Source: Ancylomarina subtilis (GTDB lineage Bacteria; Bacteroidota; Bacteroidia; Bacteroidales; Marinifilaceae). From it: a stretch of DNA of 64,000 nt. Below the pieces are notes generated by a model. It ran no database searches. It was not told where the DNA came from and saw only the letters and a program-made list of their open reading frames with translations. Made by a program: the position numbers and the translations under genes. Numbering within the stretch: position 1 is the first letter of the stretch; each line of letters opens with the position of its first letter. The DNA is taken from the NCBI RefSeq assembly GCF_004217115.1, contig NZ_SHKN01000001.1:1057781-1121780 (forward strand), read 5' to 3'. Of the stretch, positions 45,080 to 52,984 are shown in pieces.

Positions 45080-45544
45080 TTAGGGGCTGGGCTTTTTTTC
45101 AAGCACAATTATTTCAGGTAAATCTCGATGAAAAAAATATCCCTGATAATCAAGTTTATCGTTATTCAATTTAGTAATCATAAGAATATTAAACATTACT
45201 CCATAGTTATCATCGGCAAGAATGCCTAGCATCGTCGCAATATCTTGATGACTAGGAGACAAGCTAAATTTGGGGTGAGAATGCCATTCTCCAATATAAT
45301 ATCCTGTTCTTTTCTTATAGTGTTTTCTTAAAAGTAAGTCTGATTTTTTGACACCTCTAATAAAAGAGGCTATCGAGTATTTGTTGTCTTCATCTGAAAC
45401 AGAGGCATCAATTATCTCAAAACTATTATCTTCAACTTTTTTGCCAATTAGAATTCCACCCGTTTCAAAATCACCAGATTTTCTTAAAGCTCTTTCTATT
45501 TTAGTTTCCACATCAGGAGTAACTTTAAAATTAATCTTCATCAT
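45080..45544 (-). CDS. cap3: CBASS Cap3, JAB/MPN-type isopeptidase
   Basis: This 154-residue protein has the JAMM zinc site: E27 in ETGGILIG and EWHSHPKFSLSPSHQD (H88, H90, D101). Cap3 removes Cap2-conjugated CD-NTase from its targets in type II CBASS. It overlaps the end of the cap2 gene by 14 bp. Its stop codon TAA lies in the core GCCCCTAAC at the cassette end. Confidence 0.9.
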   Translation of the reverse strand: MMKINFKVTPDVETKIERALRKSGDFETGGILIGKKVEDNSFEIIDASVSDEDNKYSIASFIRGVKKSDLLLRKHYKKRTGYYIGEWHSHPKFSLSPSHQDIATMLGILADDNYGVMFNILMITKLNNDKLDYQGYFFHRDLPEIIVLEKKPSP

Positions 45545-47327
45545 TCTTTAAAATTGAATCATTTGCAAAATTTAAAATCTCCTGTTCTGTCAAACCAAGT
45601 TCATTCTCAATTTGCTCGTTGCCAAAACAAACAAAACAGTTTGAATATGATTTAAAGCCTGTTGTGTCAACTTTTATACATTCAAACTCTTCTTTAAAAA
45701 TCCATTTTTTTTCATTTCCCCATAAAATTATATTTGGTTTAGATTTAAACACCTCTAAATTTTCTGAAAGGAGAATTTCTAGAGCCATTTTTACAGTAAA
45801 AAGCGAAATATATTTTGCGTCAATACTTAGTGCCGGAGTAGGAAGTATTTCACCTTCCTCTGTTTCGTTATAATCAATGAACTTAGTTTCTGGAGTGTCA
45901 TTAAAACCATCTTGTGTTTCTAATATTCTAGATAACTTATTGTTCACACATTCAAAACAAGGTGTTATATCTGGAATTATTCTTATAATCTCTCCACCAT
46001 ATCCTAGTGGATAGACTTTAGAATGCAGTGATGGTATTTTATATAACCAACAAAATTCATTAATTACTTCTTCTATCTCTGCCGTTGCATTTACGATTAT
46101 ATCAGCGCTTTTTATTATTTCACTTACATGACTTGGTATTGTTATAATTTTAGTTTCAATGCAATCAACCTTGATAAATGGATTAATTCTTTGTAATTTA
46201 TTTTTTAAGGCTTGCGTTTTCTTTAAGCCAACATCTTCAAGACCACATGTATGTCTAATTACATTCTCCACAGTTAGATAATCATCATCAATTAGTGTCA
46301 ATTCTGAAATACCAGATTTCACAAATTCTTCAGCTATAACACTCCCTGAAGAACCGCAACCAATGATGGCGACTTTCTTTTTGCTAATTAATGTAGTTTT
46401 TTTAAAATCGGGAGTCCTTGAGTTGAGTTGGGTTAAATCAGGATTATAACATCCAAAATATTCAACTTTACTGTCTTTGTGATTGATTTTAGCGTATAAT
46501 TCGGCTTTATTATCAGTAATAAAAACAACATGCTCAGTTTTATCTTTTTCTATTTTTTCTTGTGCCTCTTTAACCGTAAGGATTTGCTGATTATTTAAAA
46601 ACTCAACGAACTTATTTAAGTCTTCTATAAACACAATTGTGTTTAGATGATTTTGAGATGCTTTAATCCAGGTTCCAACGTTTTTTGAAAAAAATAGATT
46701 TATACCCCATATTTTTAAGTACTCACTTTCTATAATTTTTTTTAAATAATCTTCATTTGGTTTTTCTACTGGTAATATAGGACTTACAATTATCCTACTT
46801 TCTCCCATTGGACTGAAATAATCAAATTTCCCAATTGTAGAATCTTTAGGCAGAGGAAGAGGAAATGGGACAATGCATCTAATAATTCTTTTTGTGATAT
46901 CTAATTTAGTTGGCTCAACTTCTTCGTAAACATCTAACTTACCTGTTTTATTCTCAATCATATCTATAGCTGCTAATAACAACTTTTCCAAACTCTTTAT
47001 AATATCAACTGCTGAAAGTGAAGAATTCCAAGTTTTGTCTCTAATGTCCAGACAGAAAGCTGTACTAATGAATTGATGATTTCCTACCCAGTCCTTTTCC
47101 CTTCCTTTGGGATAAATATAAGGAATAGAAAAAGGATAATTTTGAGGATATTTGAGTTCAAATGGAAATTTGATAGAACCTCCAATTTTAGTTGGAAGAT
47201 ATATAGTACCAGATAACCAGAGTAATTCCTTTCGAATAAAGAATTCAAAATCGTTTGATTCCCATTGAATGTTTAGCCTTATTTTTTCTCTGGCAAAAAT
47301 ATGCTTTTTGTCTTCCCACCATTTCAT
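45531..47327 (-). CDS. cap2: CBASS Cap2, E2-E1 fusion
   Basis: This 598-residue protein has an E2-like domain at the N-terminus (PYIYP; catalytic cysteine C92 in FCLDIRDKTW) and an E1/ThiF domain (VAIIGCGSSGSVIAEEFVKSGI, LTLIDDD, N-x-IRH) that adenylates the C-terminus of the CD-NTase; a later TPCFECVNN segment holds further cysteines. Cap2 links the CD-NTase to unknown targets and primes it. It overlaps the CD-NTase gene by 4 bp. Confidence 0.92.
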   Translation of the reverse strand: MKWWEDKKHIFAREKIRLNIQWESNDFEFFIRKELLWLSGTIYLPTKIGGSIKFPFELKYPQNYPFSIPYIYPKGREKDWVGNHQFISTAFCLDIRDKTWNSSLSAVDIIKSLEKLLLAAIDMIENKTGKLDVYEEVEPTKLDITKRIIRCIVPFPLPLPKDSTIGKFDYFSPMGESRIIVSPILPVEKPNEDYLKKIIESEYLKIWGINLFFSKNVGTWIKASQNHLNTIVFIEDLNKFVEFLNNQQILTVKEAQEKIEKDKTEHVVFITDNKAELYAKINHKDSKVEYFGCYNPDLTQLNSRTPDFKKTTLISKKKVAIIGCGSSGSVIAEEFVKSGISELTLIDDDYLTVENVIRHTCGLEDVGLKKTQALKNKLQRINPFIKVDCIETKIITIPSHVSEIIKSADIIVNATAEIEEVINEFCWLYKIPSLHSKVYPLGYGGEIIRIIPDITPCFECVNNKLSRILETQDGFNDTPETKFIDYNETEEGEILPTPALSIDAKYISLFTVKMALEILLSENLEVFKSKPNIILWGNEKKWIFKEEFECIKVDTTGFKSYSNCFVCFGNEQIENELGLTEQEILNFANDSILKNDED

Positions 47328-48544
47328 TTTTGAAAGCCTTCTCTTTTGGTTTTAGGAAGTTTTTTGGGTAATTCGGTGTCTATGTGTTGCGCTACATTTG
47401 CCGATAATAGGGTAGATGTTGATTTTAATAATCCTTTATTACTGATATTACTAAATGTTTTGTCTGTTATTCTTTTTCCAAAAATAGGCGAAAATGATTC
47501 TTGAATTTTATTTAATTCTTTTAATTCAAAAGATGAAGACAATTCTGTTTTTACCTTATTTAACCATTCGTAAAAATTCTTTTCTTTTTGAGGATTTTCA
47601 GGCCATTTGTCGGCAAAGTTTTCTTCTTCATTAACAGGATTACCTATCCATTTTATCCATTTGTTATGCTCTACAGAAAACTTTGTTTCGATGAAAGATT
47701 CCATGTTTTCAACAACATTGGTTAATGCTGTGATTATATCAGTCTCTTTATTGTATGCTTTAGAAGATAAAGTAGTGATAATTATTGAAATTGGTTTATC
47801 TTCATCTCCATCAAACATTATATCCCTATGCCTTTTAAGAATTTGTACTACTCGTTGAAGAGGAAGTTTTTCTTTTTGGTATGTTGGCAATGGATTTACT
47901 GATTCGCTAAGAAAAACAGATTTTCGAATTGAAATACTACACCTTTCTTGAAACCATGCTGCATATCCAAATGGATTACTTTTATTCCAGTAATCAGGAT
48001 TGGTTTCATTGAAGTAATTATCTTCTTGGTTGTCAGTAATTCTTATTGCAGTTTTTTCAAAATCCTTAAAGTCTATTGCAGAAAATGCTTTTTCAAGGAT
48101 GACTCTATGACCTTCTGAGACGATTGATGGTAAGACATCCATGTGATATTTGGAAGAATCAGCATAATTCAAAGTCCAACATCTGCGACCTTCTTCATCA
48201 AGCATTTCTTTATAAGTTTTGTTTTCTTTAAGCCTATCTCCAACAATTTTCTTTAAATGATATTGTGCCCAATCTGCTTTTTTCCCTTCCAACCTACAAA
48301 CTAAATCTACATCTAGTTCATCTGAATCATTAACTGGTTTTATCATAGTACCAAGCAAGAAAGAACCCTGCGGTAAAATTTCAGGTTTGTAAGGTGATAA
48401 TAATGATTTTTCGTCAGCAAGCCATTTACCTACAGCTTGATAACTTTGAACCGCGAATTTGTATTGGGTTTCTGAAATATCAAGATTGTTTCCAATTTCT
48501 TCTAATATCTCATTAAACTGGGCTTTAATTTCATTTGTTAACAT
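47324..48544 (-). CDS. CBASS CD-NTase, cyclic-oligonucleotide synthase
   Basis: This 406-residue protein has the nucleotidyltransferase signature QGSFLLGT (GS at 60-61), DELDVD with catalytic D78 and D80, and third acid D136 in KYHMDVLPS. It produces a cyclic di- or trinucleotide on phage infection; the exact product is not readable. A longer frame starts at 48640 but would overlap the upstream gene by 85 bp; the ATG at 48544 is the real start. C-terminus KTKREGFQK is the part expected to be conjugated by Cap2. Confidence 0.92.
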   Translation of the reverse strand: MLTNEIKAQFNEILEEIGNNLDISETQYKFAVQSYQAVGKWLADEKSLLSPYKPEILPQGSFLLGTMIKPVNDSDELDVDLVCRLEGKKADWAQYHLKKIVGDRLKENKTYKEMLDEEGRRCWTLNYADSSKYHMDVLPSIVSEGHRVILEKAFSAIDFKDFEKTAIRITDNQEDNYFNETNPDYWNKSNPFGYAAWFQERCSISIRKSVFLSESVNPLPTYQKEKLPLQRVVQILKRHRDIMFDGDEDKPISIIITTLSSKAYNKETDIITALTNVVENMESFIETKFSVEHNKWIKWIGNPVNEEENFADKWPENPQKEKNFYEWLNKVKTELSSSFELKELNKIQESFSPIFGKRITDKTFSNISNKGLLKSTSTLLSANVAQHIDTELPKKLPKTKREGFQK

Positions 48545-48555
48545 AGGATTTAGTT

Positions 48556-49677
48556 TTATATTTCTATTGTTTTGTAAAAACCATTTCTTTCTTTGTTTTG
48601 GTCGTAAATTATTAAATCCATATCCGCTTTTGGCATCCATATTCGACCGAATTCTATTGCAGCAGAGACAGGCATTGCTGGGAATACATGCAACTTATTA
48701 TCTTGACCATGTTTAGCTTTAACTATATCAAAAAAGTGCCTACATATTTTTCTAAACTTAGATAAGATAATCTTGCCTTTTAAGAAGTCATTATCCGGAC
48801 TGTCATGGGTAATTGTCCAAATACAAATTTTTGAATCAAAGAGTTTTTCAATTCTATCATTTGTAATTGTAGCACTTAACGATATATTTAAAACAGGTAA
48901 TCCATCAAATTCTTTTGGCTCAATTAGATTAAAATCATCAAAATCGGTTTCATCTTGCCATTCCCAAGTTTCAGGTTCTCTATGCCTTTGAAATACCTGC
49001 ACATCATACAAGTCATTAAATAATGTCCCAAACTTTATAAGTAGTGGCTGAGGTGCAAGTCCAAATGCTGAAAAAGATTTGATTGGGCTATGTATTTTTA
49101 AATTCTCAACTTTCTCTCTAAATTGTCGTTCAAGATTTTTGGATTCTAACTCCCAAAATAAATCTTCATTATCTTTGATAATGCTATTTGTTATACTTAA
49201 TTCAACTCCATAGCTTTCCGTTGGGAATTTATCTGGAATTATTGCTTGAAATGCAGATTCATAGTTAAGAGGAGAACCTTGATTACCAATATTTGCACCG
49301 TATAAAATTACATGTGTTTTCTTTGACGATGAAAGTGAAGTAAGCAATTCAATCCTTTTCTCATGTTCTTTTTTCATTTCAACTAACAAATTTTCTGGAT
49401 GTCCATCAACATCTTCTTTATCAATTAGTCTATGATGTGCATCGCACATTAGCATTAGATTACTAAATGATTTTGCAAGTAATGGAGAACGTTCTTCATC
49501 TCCCCTTGGTCCATCAGGACTGTCCGCAACAATATGAGCAATATAAGCATTGTTCATTTTTGCCATAGACAATTCATCCTTCCATAGAGGTTTATTACAT
49601 CCTCGATATTCGCATCTACCAGCCGATAAAGTCCATAATTGCGTCTTTATTTTTTCAGGTATTGAAGTCTTTGACAT
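48556..49677 (-). CDS. cap5: CBASS Cap5-like effector, HNH nuclease fused to SAVED domain
   Basis: This 373-residue protein has a zinc-bound HNH nuclease at the N-terminus (C22, C27 in GRCEYRGCNKP; H48 in AHIVADSPDGPRGD; N73, C78 and HH81-82 in NLMLMCDAHHRLID) and a SAVED sensor domain in the rest (about 155-373). Binding of the cyclic nucleotide lets it degrade DNA nonspecifically and kill the infected cell. It is first in the operon, 11 bp before the CD-NTase. Confidence 0.92.
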   Translation of the reverse strand: MSKTSIPEKIKTQLWTLSAGRCEYRGCNKPLWKDELSMAKMNNAYIAHIVADSPDGPRGDEERSPLLAKSFSNLMLMCDAHHRLIDKEDVDGHPENLLVEMKKEHEKRIELLTSLSSSKKTHVILYGANIGNQGSPLNYESAFQAIIPDKFPTESYGVELSITNSIIKDNEDLFWELESKNLERQFREKVENLKIHSPIKSFSAFGLAPQPLLIKFGTLFNDLYDVQVFQRHREPETWEWQDETDFDDFNLIEPKEFDGLPVLNISLSATITNDRIEKLFDSKICIWTITHDSPDNDFLKGKIILSKFRKICRHFFDIVKAKHGQDNKLHVFPAMPVSAAIEFGRIWMPKADMDLIIYDQNKERNGFYKTIEI

Positions 49678-51007: not shown

Positions 51008-52117
51008 TTATGAATTTGTGCAGTACGAATAAATCAAAGGATGTATCACGATTTGGTTCACACTGCTTGATTAATAATAAACTCATCTGACACAGCCAGA
51101 TTTAATCATCTTAAGCTAAGCTGTCTGAGATCAGCTTAGGCTTGTGTAAACAACTGTCTTGCTTTAAATTTTATTTTTGCTTTCTTATTCAAAGCTTTTT
51201 TGCACTTCTATTCAAAATTGAATTAGCCCCTCTAAAATTTAAATTTGTTCCTTTAAAATTTGAATCACTTGCTTTCAGAAACACAAAACCTGCTTTAAAA
51301 TTGAATTCACTTGCTTCCAGAAACACAAAACCTGCTTTAAAATTTGAATTACTTGCTTTCAGAAACACAAAACCTGCTTTAAAATTTAAATTACTTGCTT
51401 TCAAAATTGCGTCAGCTCCTCTCAGAGCCTAATCATTTGATTTAAAATCTTAATCAGCTGGCTTCAAACAATGAATAGAAAGCATCCGGAATAAATCATT
51501 TTAAGTCATAAGAGTGTCATTCTAAAGAAAATTGCTGGCAACGATCAAAATCGTGCAGAGAGATTCAGCAAATAGGAAATACTTCGACTTAGAAGTCATA
51601 AAAGTATTCAGAGGGCAACATACAGATTCTCTTTTAGTCTTATGATCTGTAATCTTAGTTGTTCTTGTGGTTGAACGGTAGAGCTAATTTAAAGAATTAT
51701 TTCATTATACTCCAAATAAAAAATCATTGATCATGAAATAAATGCCACTCATCACACAAAACAAACCATTCACATTTAAACAGAACATCAGATAATACAA
51801 GCCATTCAGAATAAGAGCATCGATAGATATTTTTTTTTGTAAAACATCCTATTTTTGTGAATGTCTTTCCCTTTTAGGGAAAGTGCCGGCAGGCGATAAG
51901 GTGAACTTTTCAAAAGAAGAAATACAGCCTTTGGCTGATAAATTTAATTTCTTATATAGCCTTTGCACCCCTCTCCCTTCGGGATCTCCCCTGTTAGGGG
52001 AGAAAGGTGATTCAAAAGTGATTATGAATAGCTTTCCCTTTTAGGGAAAGTGCCGGCAGACGATAGGGTGAACTTTTCAACAAAAATTTGTATTTTGTAT
52101 GGTCTAAGATCTTTGGA
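51008..52117. other. Repeat-rich spacer before the DUF559 gene
   Basis: This 1.1-kb stretch has no supported gene. It holds a 21-bp periodic minisatellite (51205-51477) and the first hairpin repeats of the DUF559 region (from 51865). Frames on both strands through the minisatellite are repeat-driven and lack ATG starts. Confidence 0.6.
51205..51477. repeat. 21-bp periodic minisatellite with a 42-bp higher-order unit
   Basis: About thirteen 21-base units lie in phase from 51205 to 51477. In the centre (51267-51403) they alternate as two types, one starting CTTGCTTTCAGAAAC, the other CCTGCTTTAAAATT, so the clearest period is 42 bp in about 3.3 copies. 21 is a multiple of three, and both strands stay open through the core, giving heptad peptide repeats such as KASNSNF and KAGFVFL (minus). 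Outer units are worn. Confidence 0.85.
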
Positions 52118-52984
52118 ATGAAATATCACGAGATTAAAGAAATAAAACACAAACTAAAACGTAACACAACACCATCAGAGAAGCTGTTATGGAAGCATAT
52201 TCGCAATAGACAGCTTAAGGGACGGAAATTTTTAAGGCAACATGCCATTATTTATGATACCGACCATGATGAATATTTCTTTTTTGTGCCTGACTTTTAC
52301 TGTATTGCCGAAAAACTAGCAATTGAACTGGATGGAAAGGTTCATGACTTCAGAAAGGGAAAGGATGCTAATCGAGACGCCATATTAGAAGATCAAGACA
52401 TTAGGGTGATTCGAATTAAAAATAAAGAACTGGTTAACCCAACAGCTGTTTTAGATAAGATTATATCATCCTTCAGACTAGAAGATGATGATCCTGCCTT
52501 TAAAAGAAAATCGTATCAATAAATTTTAGTTGCACCCCTCTCCCCTCGGGATCTCCCCTAATAAGGGAGAATTCATTTAATCGATCTTTCCCTGAAAAGG
52601 AACCGTAACGAAGTTTATGAATCACTTTCCCTATTTAGGGAAAGTGCCGGCAGGCGATAGGGTGAACTTTTCAAAAGAAGAAATACAGCCTTTGGCTGAT
52701 AAATTTAATTTCTTATATAGCCTACACCCCTCTCCCTTCGGGATCTCCCCTGCTAAGGGAGAAAGGTGATTCAAAAGTGATTATGAATAGCTTTCCCTTT
52801 TAGGGAAAGTGCCGGCAGGCAATAGGGTGAACTTTTATCTGGCAAGTCCATTTATATATATAGCCTACACCCCTCTCCCTTCGGGATCTCCCCTGTTAGG
52901 GGAGAAAGGTGATTCAAAAGTGATTATGAATAGCTTTCCCTATTTAGGGAAAGTGCCGGCAGGCGAAAGGGTGAACTAAAACTC
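51865..52984. repeat. Array of two alternating hairpin repeats around the DUF559 gene
   Basis: Type A units start at 51865, 52032, 52625, 52791 and 52934; each has CTTTCCC-spacer-GGGAAAG, then TGCCGGCAG and GGTGAAC. Type B units start at 51966, 52533, 52725 and 52868; each reads CACCCCTCTCCC, CGGGATCTCCCC and, in three copies, ends in AGAAAGGTG. A and B alternate, and the gene sits between A2 and B2. Linkers between units are also conserved (for example the block after A1 and A3). Confidence 0.85.
52118..52522 (+). CDS. DUF559 (Vsr-like) endonuclease-domain protein
   Basis: This 134-residue protein has the DUF559 pattern: KLKRNTTPSEKLLWKHIRNRQLKGRKFLRQH, FVPDFYC, LAIELDGKVHD and VIRIKNKEL. 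These fit a PD-(D/E)XK/Vsr-like nuclease (D in PDF, E-x-D in ELDG). The start is the ATG at 52118. Similar genes are often surrounded by repeats in Bacteroidota. Here it lies inside an array of hairpin repeats, so a role in spreading or keeping these repeats is possible but unproven. Confidence 0.85.
   Translation: MKYHEIKEIKHKLKRNTTPSEKLLWKHIRNRQLKGRKFLRQHAIIYDTDHDEYFFFVPDFYCIAEKLAIELDGKVHDFRKGKDANRDAILEDQDIRVIRIKNKELVNPTAVLDKIISSFRLEDDDPAFKRKSYQ

Follow-up and report, generated by a model that had tools for sequence, protein, structure and literature searches.

The window analysed here, a stretch of 64,000 nucleotides from the Ancylomarina subtilis genome (contig NZ_SHKN01000001.1, positions 1,057,781 to 1,121,780 of the forward strand), carries between positions 51864 and 52974 an array of nine copies of one two-hairpin element, all recognised by a single model (R1) at 48.7-59.3 bits. 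Five copies lie on the minus strand (A units) and four on the plus strand (B units), and their alternation puts the heads of neighbouring units face to face. The array opens with A1 (51864..51904, 54.7 bits), whose head points inward to higher coordinates, followed by B1 (51965..52004, 55.1 bits). A2 (52031..52071, 56.0 bits) lies directly upstream, and B2 (52532..52571, 52.8 bits) directly downstream, of a plus-strand gene at 52121..52522 for a predicted DUF559 nuclease of 133 aa (Vsr/EDxHD-like, PD-(D/E)XK type), both with their heads gene-ward. After B2 comes a decayed, A-like main hairpin with no recognisable head (52585..52602), placed by its sequence in direct-repeat family D4 at 78%. 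The array continues with A3 (52624..52665, 48.7 bits), B3 (52724..52763, 53.1 bits), A4 (52790..52830, 59.3 bits) and B4 (52867..52906, 55.3 bits), and closes with A5 (52933..52974, 52.7 bits), which has no B after it.

A1 thus faces B1 across 60 bp, A2 faces B2 across the gene, A3 faces B3 across 58 bp and A4 faces B4 across 36 bp, so that what lies between the paired heads is the DUF559 gene in one module and a linker of 36-60 bp in three. From this order and spacing the array can be read as one gene-bearing module, three miniature modules and one single element. An identical 26-base spacer separates B1 from A2, B3 from A4 and B4 from A5, and the final stretch of the array is a 143-bp tandem duplication. 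Elsewhere in the window, a 42-bp tandem repeat (3.6 copies, 92% matches) lies just upstream of the array at 51251-51403. A CBASS-like operon occupies 45080-49677 on the minus strand, with a SAVED-HNH effector at 48556-49677 (PADLOC effector model, E 4e-154) and, judged by eye, nucleotidyltransferase-like, E1/ThiF-like and JAB-like proteins beside it.

The initial annotation had described five A and four B units here, and all of them were recovered: the B pattern matched four times in the window and never in 100 shuffles, and the A pattern matched exactly five times. A loose A pattern allowing 3 mismatches gave 8 matches in total, a count that 1 shuffle in 100 also reached. An Rfam scan of the window returned a single tRNA and nothing else. 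The same annotation spoke of two alternating hairpin repeats; the alternation stands, and the notion of two unrelated kinds does not, because the minus-strand reading of A shows the same layout as B (CACCC head, mini hairpin, main hairpin), which makes the two inverted relatives of one element kind. Counting units over the genome, as that annotation had proposed, gave 14 element matches, 9 of them within the 1.1 kb of the array and around the only DUF559 gene of A. subtilis; matches beyond the window were counted only, and their positions were not determined.

Read head first, each element consists of CACCC, a few bases, a mini hairpin and a main hairpin. In B, the order CCCCTCT, mini hairpin, TCTCCCC, loop, GGGGAGA forms a mirror repeat, in which the head mirrors the purine arm exactly; in A the head fits with T in place of A. 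Compensatory change preserves both hairpins. An alignment of 16 elements, taken from seven DUF559 loci of the family, has 97.1% of its cells paired and 27 cells changed on both sides, where shuffles give 8.1 and slid controls at most 5. That set began as 23 elements; two with inserts and two copies from the window were not aligned, leaving 19, and three more were dropped for odd length. The mirror is general, with an own head-stem fit of 0.917 against 0.797 for shuffled heads (sd 0.007, z 16.9) in 149 elements from 95 loci; a stem G meets a head G in 980 of 1036 cases, and a stem A meets A or T in 287 of 331. This sample was drawn from 303 elements, after removal of 81 without a G-rich head and of 73 more that were duplicates or exceeded two per locus. 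A direct-repeat fit of stem and head, tried as an alternative, was weaker (z 5.5).

As far as architecture goes, the window element is a Bacteroidota relative of the BoxC/PIT/TM_ECO repeat of E. coli. The exact TM_ECO sequence is not met, the window stems being CTTTCCC and TCTCCCC rather than CCCTCNCCC. Members of that repeat family are reported to form triplexes in vitro and to occur as inverted pairs of type A and type B (Holder 2015, PMC4666352). A single strand of the window element could fold as a hairpin or as an intrastrand triplex; only hairpin folding was computed, and the triplex is inferred. Two candidate links to other sequence motifs were dropped. The DUF559 protein VsrA of Caulobacter has been linked to YGCCGGCR methylation (PMC12907096), and the A unit holds TGCCGGCA; we regard this as coincidence because the mini hairpins of the nuclease's relatives conserve pairing and not that sequence. 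Elements at three other loci carry a mini hairpin of the form CGTC-TTGC..GCAA-TCCA, which is similar to the tag (CGTC) and the tail (CCA) of the published CGTC repeats, reported to have no transposase. CGTC repeats are not linked to DUF559: the motif CGTCATT[GC]C, with 1 and 0 matches near the gene and 2 and 4 at a distance, is not enriched there.

DUF559 is a widespread family that is still named as a domain of unknown function. The window protein meets membership of PF04480 clearly (86.9 bits against a cut-off of 20.6, E 1.1e-24), and its AlphaFold2 model (pLDDT 86.9, pTM 0.79) matches 3hrl (Z 12.9, rmsd 1.8, 93 residues), the homing endonuclease I-Bth0305I (3r3p; Z 12.0, rmsd 2.1, 92 residues) and Vsr (1cw0; Z 9.1, rmsd 2.5, 97 residues), which bears out the earlier call of a DUF559, Vsr-like nuclease. 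The sequence profile also reaches 3r3p (E 0.0006), the fold neighbours include AbaSI and PvuRts1I, and Foldseek gave weak matches to R2 retrotransposons. Columns invariant in 29 sequences include E20, W24, Q40, D58, E69, D71, H75, D82 and R98, of which D58, E69, D71 and H75 are taken as putative active-site residues. On the strength of the predicted fold the protein is likely a nuclease, although the fold does not show the substrate and cleavage is inferred. In the section on inteins of one source, a DUF559 gene is assigned to the EDxHD homing family (PMC9403480).

Hairpins of this architecture accompany DUF559 genes far beyond A. subtilis. In sets of 29, 30 and 80 loci, hairpins near and far from DUF559 numbered 57 and 0, 77 and 3, and 170 and 42, in 29.1 and 27.1, 29.6 and 28.9, and 77.3 and 290.1 kb of sequence, giving 1.96-2.60 per kb near against 0-0.145 far. 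They are at least 15 times denser beside DUF559 than more than 1 kb away (139 loci, many phyla), and at least one near hairpin was found at 19 of 29, 28 of 30 and 71 of 80 loci. Outside open reading frames of at least 100 aa, the densities were 3.32, 5.26 and 5.90 hairpins per kb near, versus 0.00, 0.35 and 0.23 far. The detector was written after inspection of loci L001-L030 and before L062-L141; L019 was excluded for lack of a domain match, and L031 was kept apart. Because the phylum loci were drawn from best-scoring matches and the named loci are the best 80 of at least 564 confirmed DUF559 candidates, these rates hold for strong members of the family. Within that scope, sequence comparison makes the association of hairpins with DUF559 very secure.

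Orientation and stem sequence follow the gene to differing degrees. Of 122 cases in the named set, the nearest element is directed at the gene in 97 and away from it in 19, with 6 ties, and both flanks face inward at 35 of 51 loci; the phylum set has no inward head bias (24 in, 23 out, 3 ties). The 150 best element matches family-wide include 17 close pairs, and in 12 of these the two elements face one another, 11-24 bp apart. Stems are identical in 9% of locus pairs whose nucleases share 30-40% identity, and in 69% of pairs at 60-80%. Stem and nuclease identity go together in a Mantel test when all 118 loci are taken at once (0 of 500 permutations), and the phylum set by itself also passes (2 of 500); the result is weak for the named set (21 of 500), and the family set does not pass (64 of 500). 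One further array, of six TM_ECO copies with a 139-bp period (G355:C23:307058-307784), resembles that of the window.

Repeat number tracks the presence of the gene. In one Pseudomonas genus, all nine genomes with DUF559, two of them with a damaged gene, hold 63-185 copies of TM_ECO by its published pattern, and four genomes without DUF559 hold 0, 0, 0 and 9. Across 158 Pseudomonadaceae genomes, which include those 13, the median is 40 copies with DUF559 versus 0 without, and at least 10 copies occur in 46 of 57 genomes with the gene versus 11 of 101 without it (Mann-Whitney p 9e-20); the other 11 of the 57 have fewer than 10. In the family of A. subtilis, DUF559 is present in 19 genomes, with a median of 24 element-model matches and none at zero, and absent from 37, with a median of 0, 26 at zero and 7 at 10 or more (p 3.7e-7). 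One of the 19 has only a weak DUF559 match, in a helicase-like reading frame, and none of these tests is corrected for shared ancestry. The initial annotation named abundant repeats without enrichment near DUF559 genes as a result that would refute the proposed unit. The elements of relatives are numerous and mostly dispersed, and of their 150 best matches only 16 come within 1.5 kb of a DUF559 place, yet they are strongly enriched beside DUF559, and the proposal survives.

Some modules lie inside host genes. At 13 of the 30 phylum loci the DUF559 domain falls within an open frame of more than 250 aa, and in all nine such frames that were scanned Pfam host domains lie around or beside it: LeuS twice, MetH, a GATase_5 protein, a UvrD-type helicase, HsdR, HsdM, an N6/N4 methylase and a type ISP protein. 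The element DNA is translated in frame, for example as the peptide SPLPLGEG. Among 27 relatives the LeuS loop is filled in 2, holds a solo element in 2 and is empty in 23; among 28 relatives the MetH linker is filled in 8 and empty in 20. These filled and empty sites fit a mobile module that tolerates in-frame entry, with base-exact ends unresolved and gain not polarised on a tree. No insertion ends or target duplications could be resolved at the LeuS and MetH sites, where the loops are too diverged, and no transposase was found in the element-nuclease modules. Mobility of the module is likely on this comparative evidence, no movement or recent transposition having been observed. In several relatives without a module the LeuS loop reads AAATTCAAAATTCAAAATT, another repeat-like filling.

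The E. coli repeat offers a counterpart with a long history. BoxC/PIT/TM_ECO has been known in that species since the 1990s with no known function and no linked gene (PMC4666352). The E. coli DUF559 gene, ycjD, was found in 3365 of 5426 genomes and has a TM_ECO copy 167 bp from its end (about 0.4% by chance), with a degenerate copy at the gene end as judged by eye. Listed E. coli records show 1 to 30 BoxC places each among 60 rows, with their ycjD state undetermined. Sakai has no ycjD at the usual place, and two O157:H7 records show 14 BoxC places, which counts against a simple link to ycjD; that these repeats outlived a lost ycjD is a guess. At three E. coli loci that lack ycjD, an efflux operon adjoins fabI or sapF, and ycjD and the operon therefore look like alternative contents of one place. 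In E. coli ETEC6 (NZ_CP041627, 1404328-1406705), the fabI-sapF interval holds ycjD as two DUF559 pieces, together with an IS1-like element.

We interpret the array, with a probability of roughly 0.7, as a selfish DNA element, made up of a DUF559 nuclease gene and its framing palindromes, together with miniature derivatives; that the nuclease mobilises it is an inference from comparison. Repeat and nuclease had already been suspected of forming a selfish unit, and enrichment, framing, copy number and in-frame modules now lend that suspicion comparative support. The autonomous form would be a DUF559 gene framed by two inverted elements with their heads pointing into the gene, and the miniature form would keep this inverted pair but enclose only a short linker. 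The nuclease would recognise its own class of element and nick or cut at the element or at the target, and repair or replication would copy the module to new places, sometimes in frame within genes. Comparison across genomes establishes the anatomy, the association, the copy-number link and the occupied and empty sites. DUF559 is the probable mobilising enzyme, a role that is inferred, as are the chemistry and the part played by the folded structure.

Several other explanations bear on the same observations. Slippage or recombination might multiply the elements, with DUF559 processing folded repeats like Vsr or a structure-specific nuclease and being kept because the repeats are present. The Vsr fold of the model and the tandem duplication inside the array agree with this, as does the proposal that VsrA of Caulobacter, which belongs to DUF559, is a nuclease of mismatch repair (PMC12907096), but nothing requires a repair gene to lie between inverted elements of its own class, or to occur with them in frame within LeuS and MetH, and we consider such a partner unlikely. 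A little less credible still is that a RAYT, another transposase or template switching moves the elements and that DUF559 is merely cargo caught between two copies. Elements do far outnumber DUF559 genes and occur in genomes without one; against this stand the association with one gene family over many phyla (framing of other genes was not surveyed), a stem class that follows nuclease relatedness and a repeat number that tracks DUF559.

A role of the nuclease in defence, with elements that serve for self-marking or regulation, would suit the CBASS-like operon 2.2 kb away, the modules within restriction-modification genes and the fold neighbours AbaSI and PvuRts1I; no PADLOC model fits the locus, however (only DpdF, partially, E 0.0055), and modules also sit in LeuS and MetH, so that we find it very improbable. 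Hairpins on both sides of the gene could also be transcription terminators or regulatory hairpins of DUF559. That reading, the least credible of those weighed, was rejected because T-runs beside hairpins are rarer than random (12 of 304, 3.9% versus 9.7%); it is further opposed by element copies in frame inside coding regions and by E. coli PIT elements, which are reported to lack promoter and terminator activity (PMC4666352).

Over and above the single array, the recurrence of the pairing across many bacterial groups suggests, on present comparisons, that this nuclease family spreads these repeats. With confidence only somewhat above even, we propose that a superfamily of triplex-capable palindromic repeats in many phyla (BoxC/PIT, the A/B units and other stem classes) has DUF559 proteins as its dedicated mobilising enzymes, so that a Vsr/homing-type nuclease replaces a transposase, recognises the mirrored hairpin or triplex, supports gene-bearing and miniature forms and enters housekeeping genes in frame. 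No published link of DUF559, COG2852 or ycjD with BoxC, PIT or REP repeats was found in open-access PMC text, and joined to one another DUF559 and BoxC/PIT/TM_ECO each gain a testable partner. If true, this would mean a repeat-spreading system independent of RAYTs, would illustrate how enzymes such as LeuS and MetH can accommodate a nuclease gene, and may offer a cause of the genome instability reported around BoxC/PIT/TM_ECO repeats.

Set beside known systems, the window units share with BoxC/PIT/TM_ECO the pyrimidine arm, loop, purine arm and mirrored head, the inverted type A and type B pairs and a copy near a DUF559 gene (ycjD), and differ in stem sequence and in the mini hairpin within the second loop. 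Rickettsia palindromic elements are palindromes read in frame within protein genes; the in-frame habit is alike, but with elements of the window type a nuclease gene travels along, and the CGTC tag of the Rickettsia elements is not enriched here (16 of 304 versus 9.4% at random). The homing endonuclease I-Bth0305I shares its Vsr-like catalytic fold with the modelled DUF559 protein and is likewise a selfish gene inside host genes (review: PMC3943268); peculiar to the DUF559 unit are its palindromes and its additional spread in the form of copies without the gene. Vsr itself is alike in fold, but DUF559 has no linked cytosine methylase and is framed by repeats. A parallel in behaviour is REP/BIME/REPIN with RAYT, which likewise combines short palindromes, alternating orientation, gene-bearing and miniature forms and dispersed copies (PMC3733652). 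Inverted pairs in alternating orientation are met by the window order and the facing close pairs; the GTAG tag at the hairpin foot is not enriched (17 of 304 elements, 5.6% versus 6.6% at random), and the partner has a restriction-endonuclease-like, Vsr-like fold and not that of an HUH Y1 tyrosine transposase, as the initial annotation had anticipated in setting it apart from RAYT. Since it works like REP/RAYT but fails on enzyme and tag, with the mobilising step inferred and the literature covered in open-access papers only, we rate the unit a new kind, and our best reading is a selfish system that resembles REP/RAYT but relies on an unrelated, Vsr-like nuclease, in which cleavage and triplex recognition are inferred.
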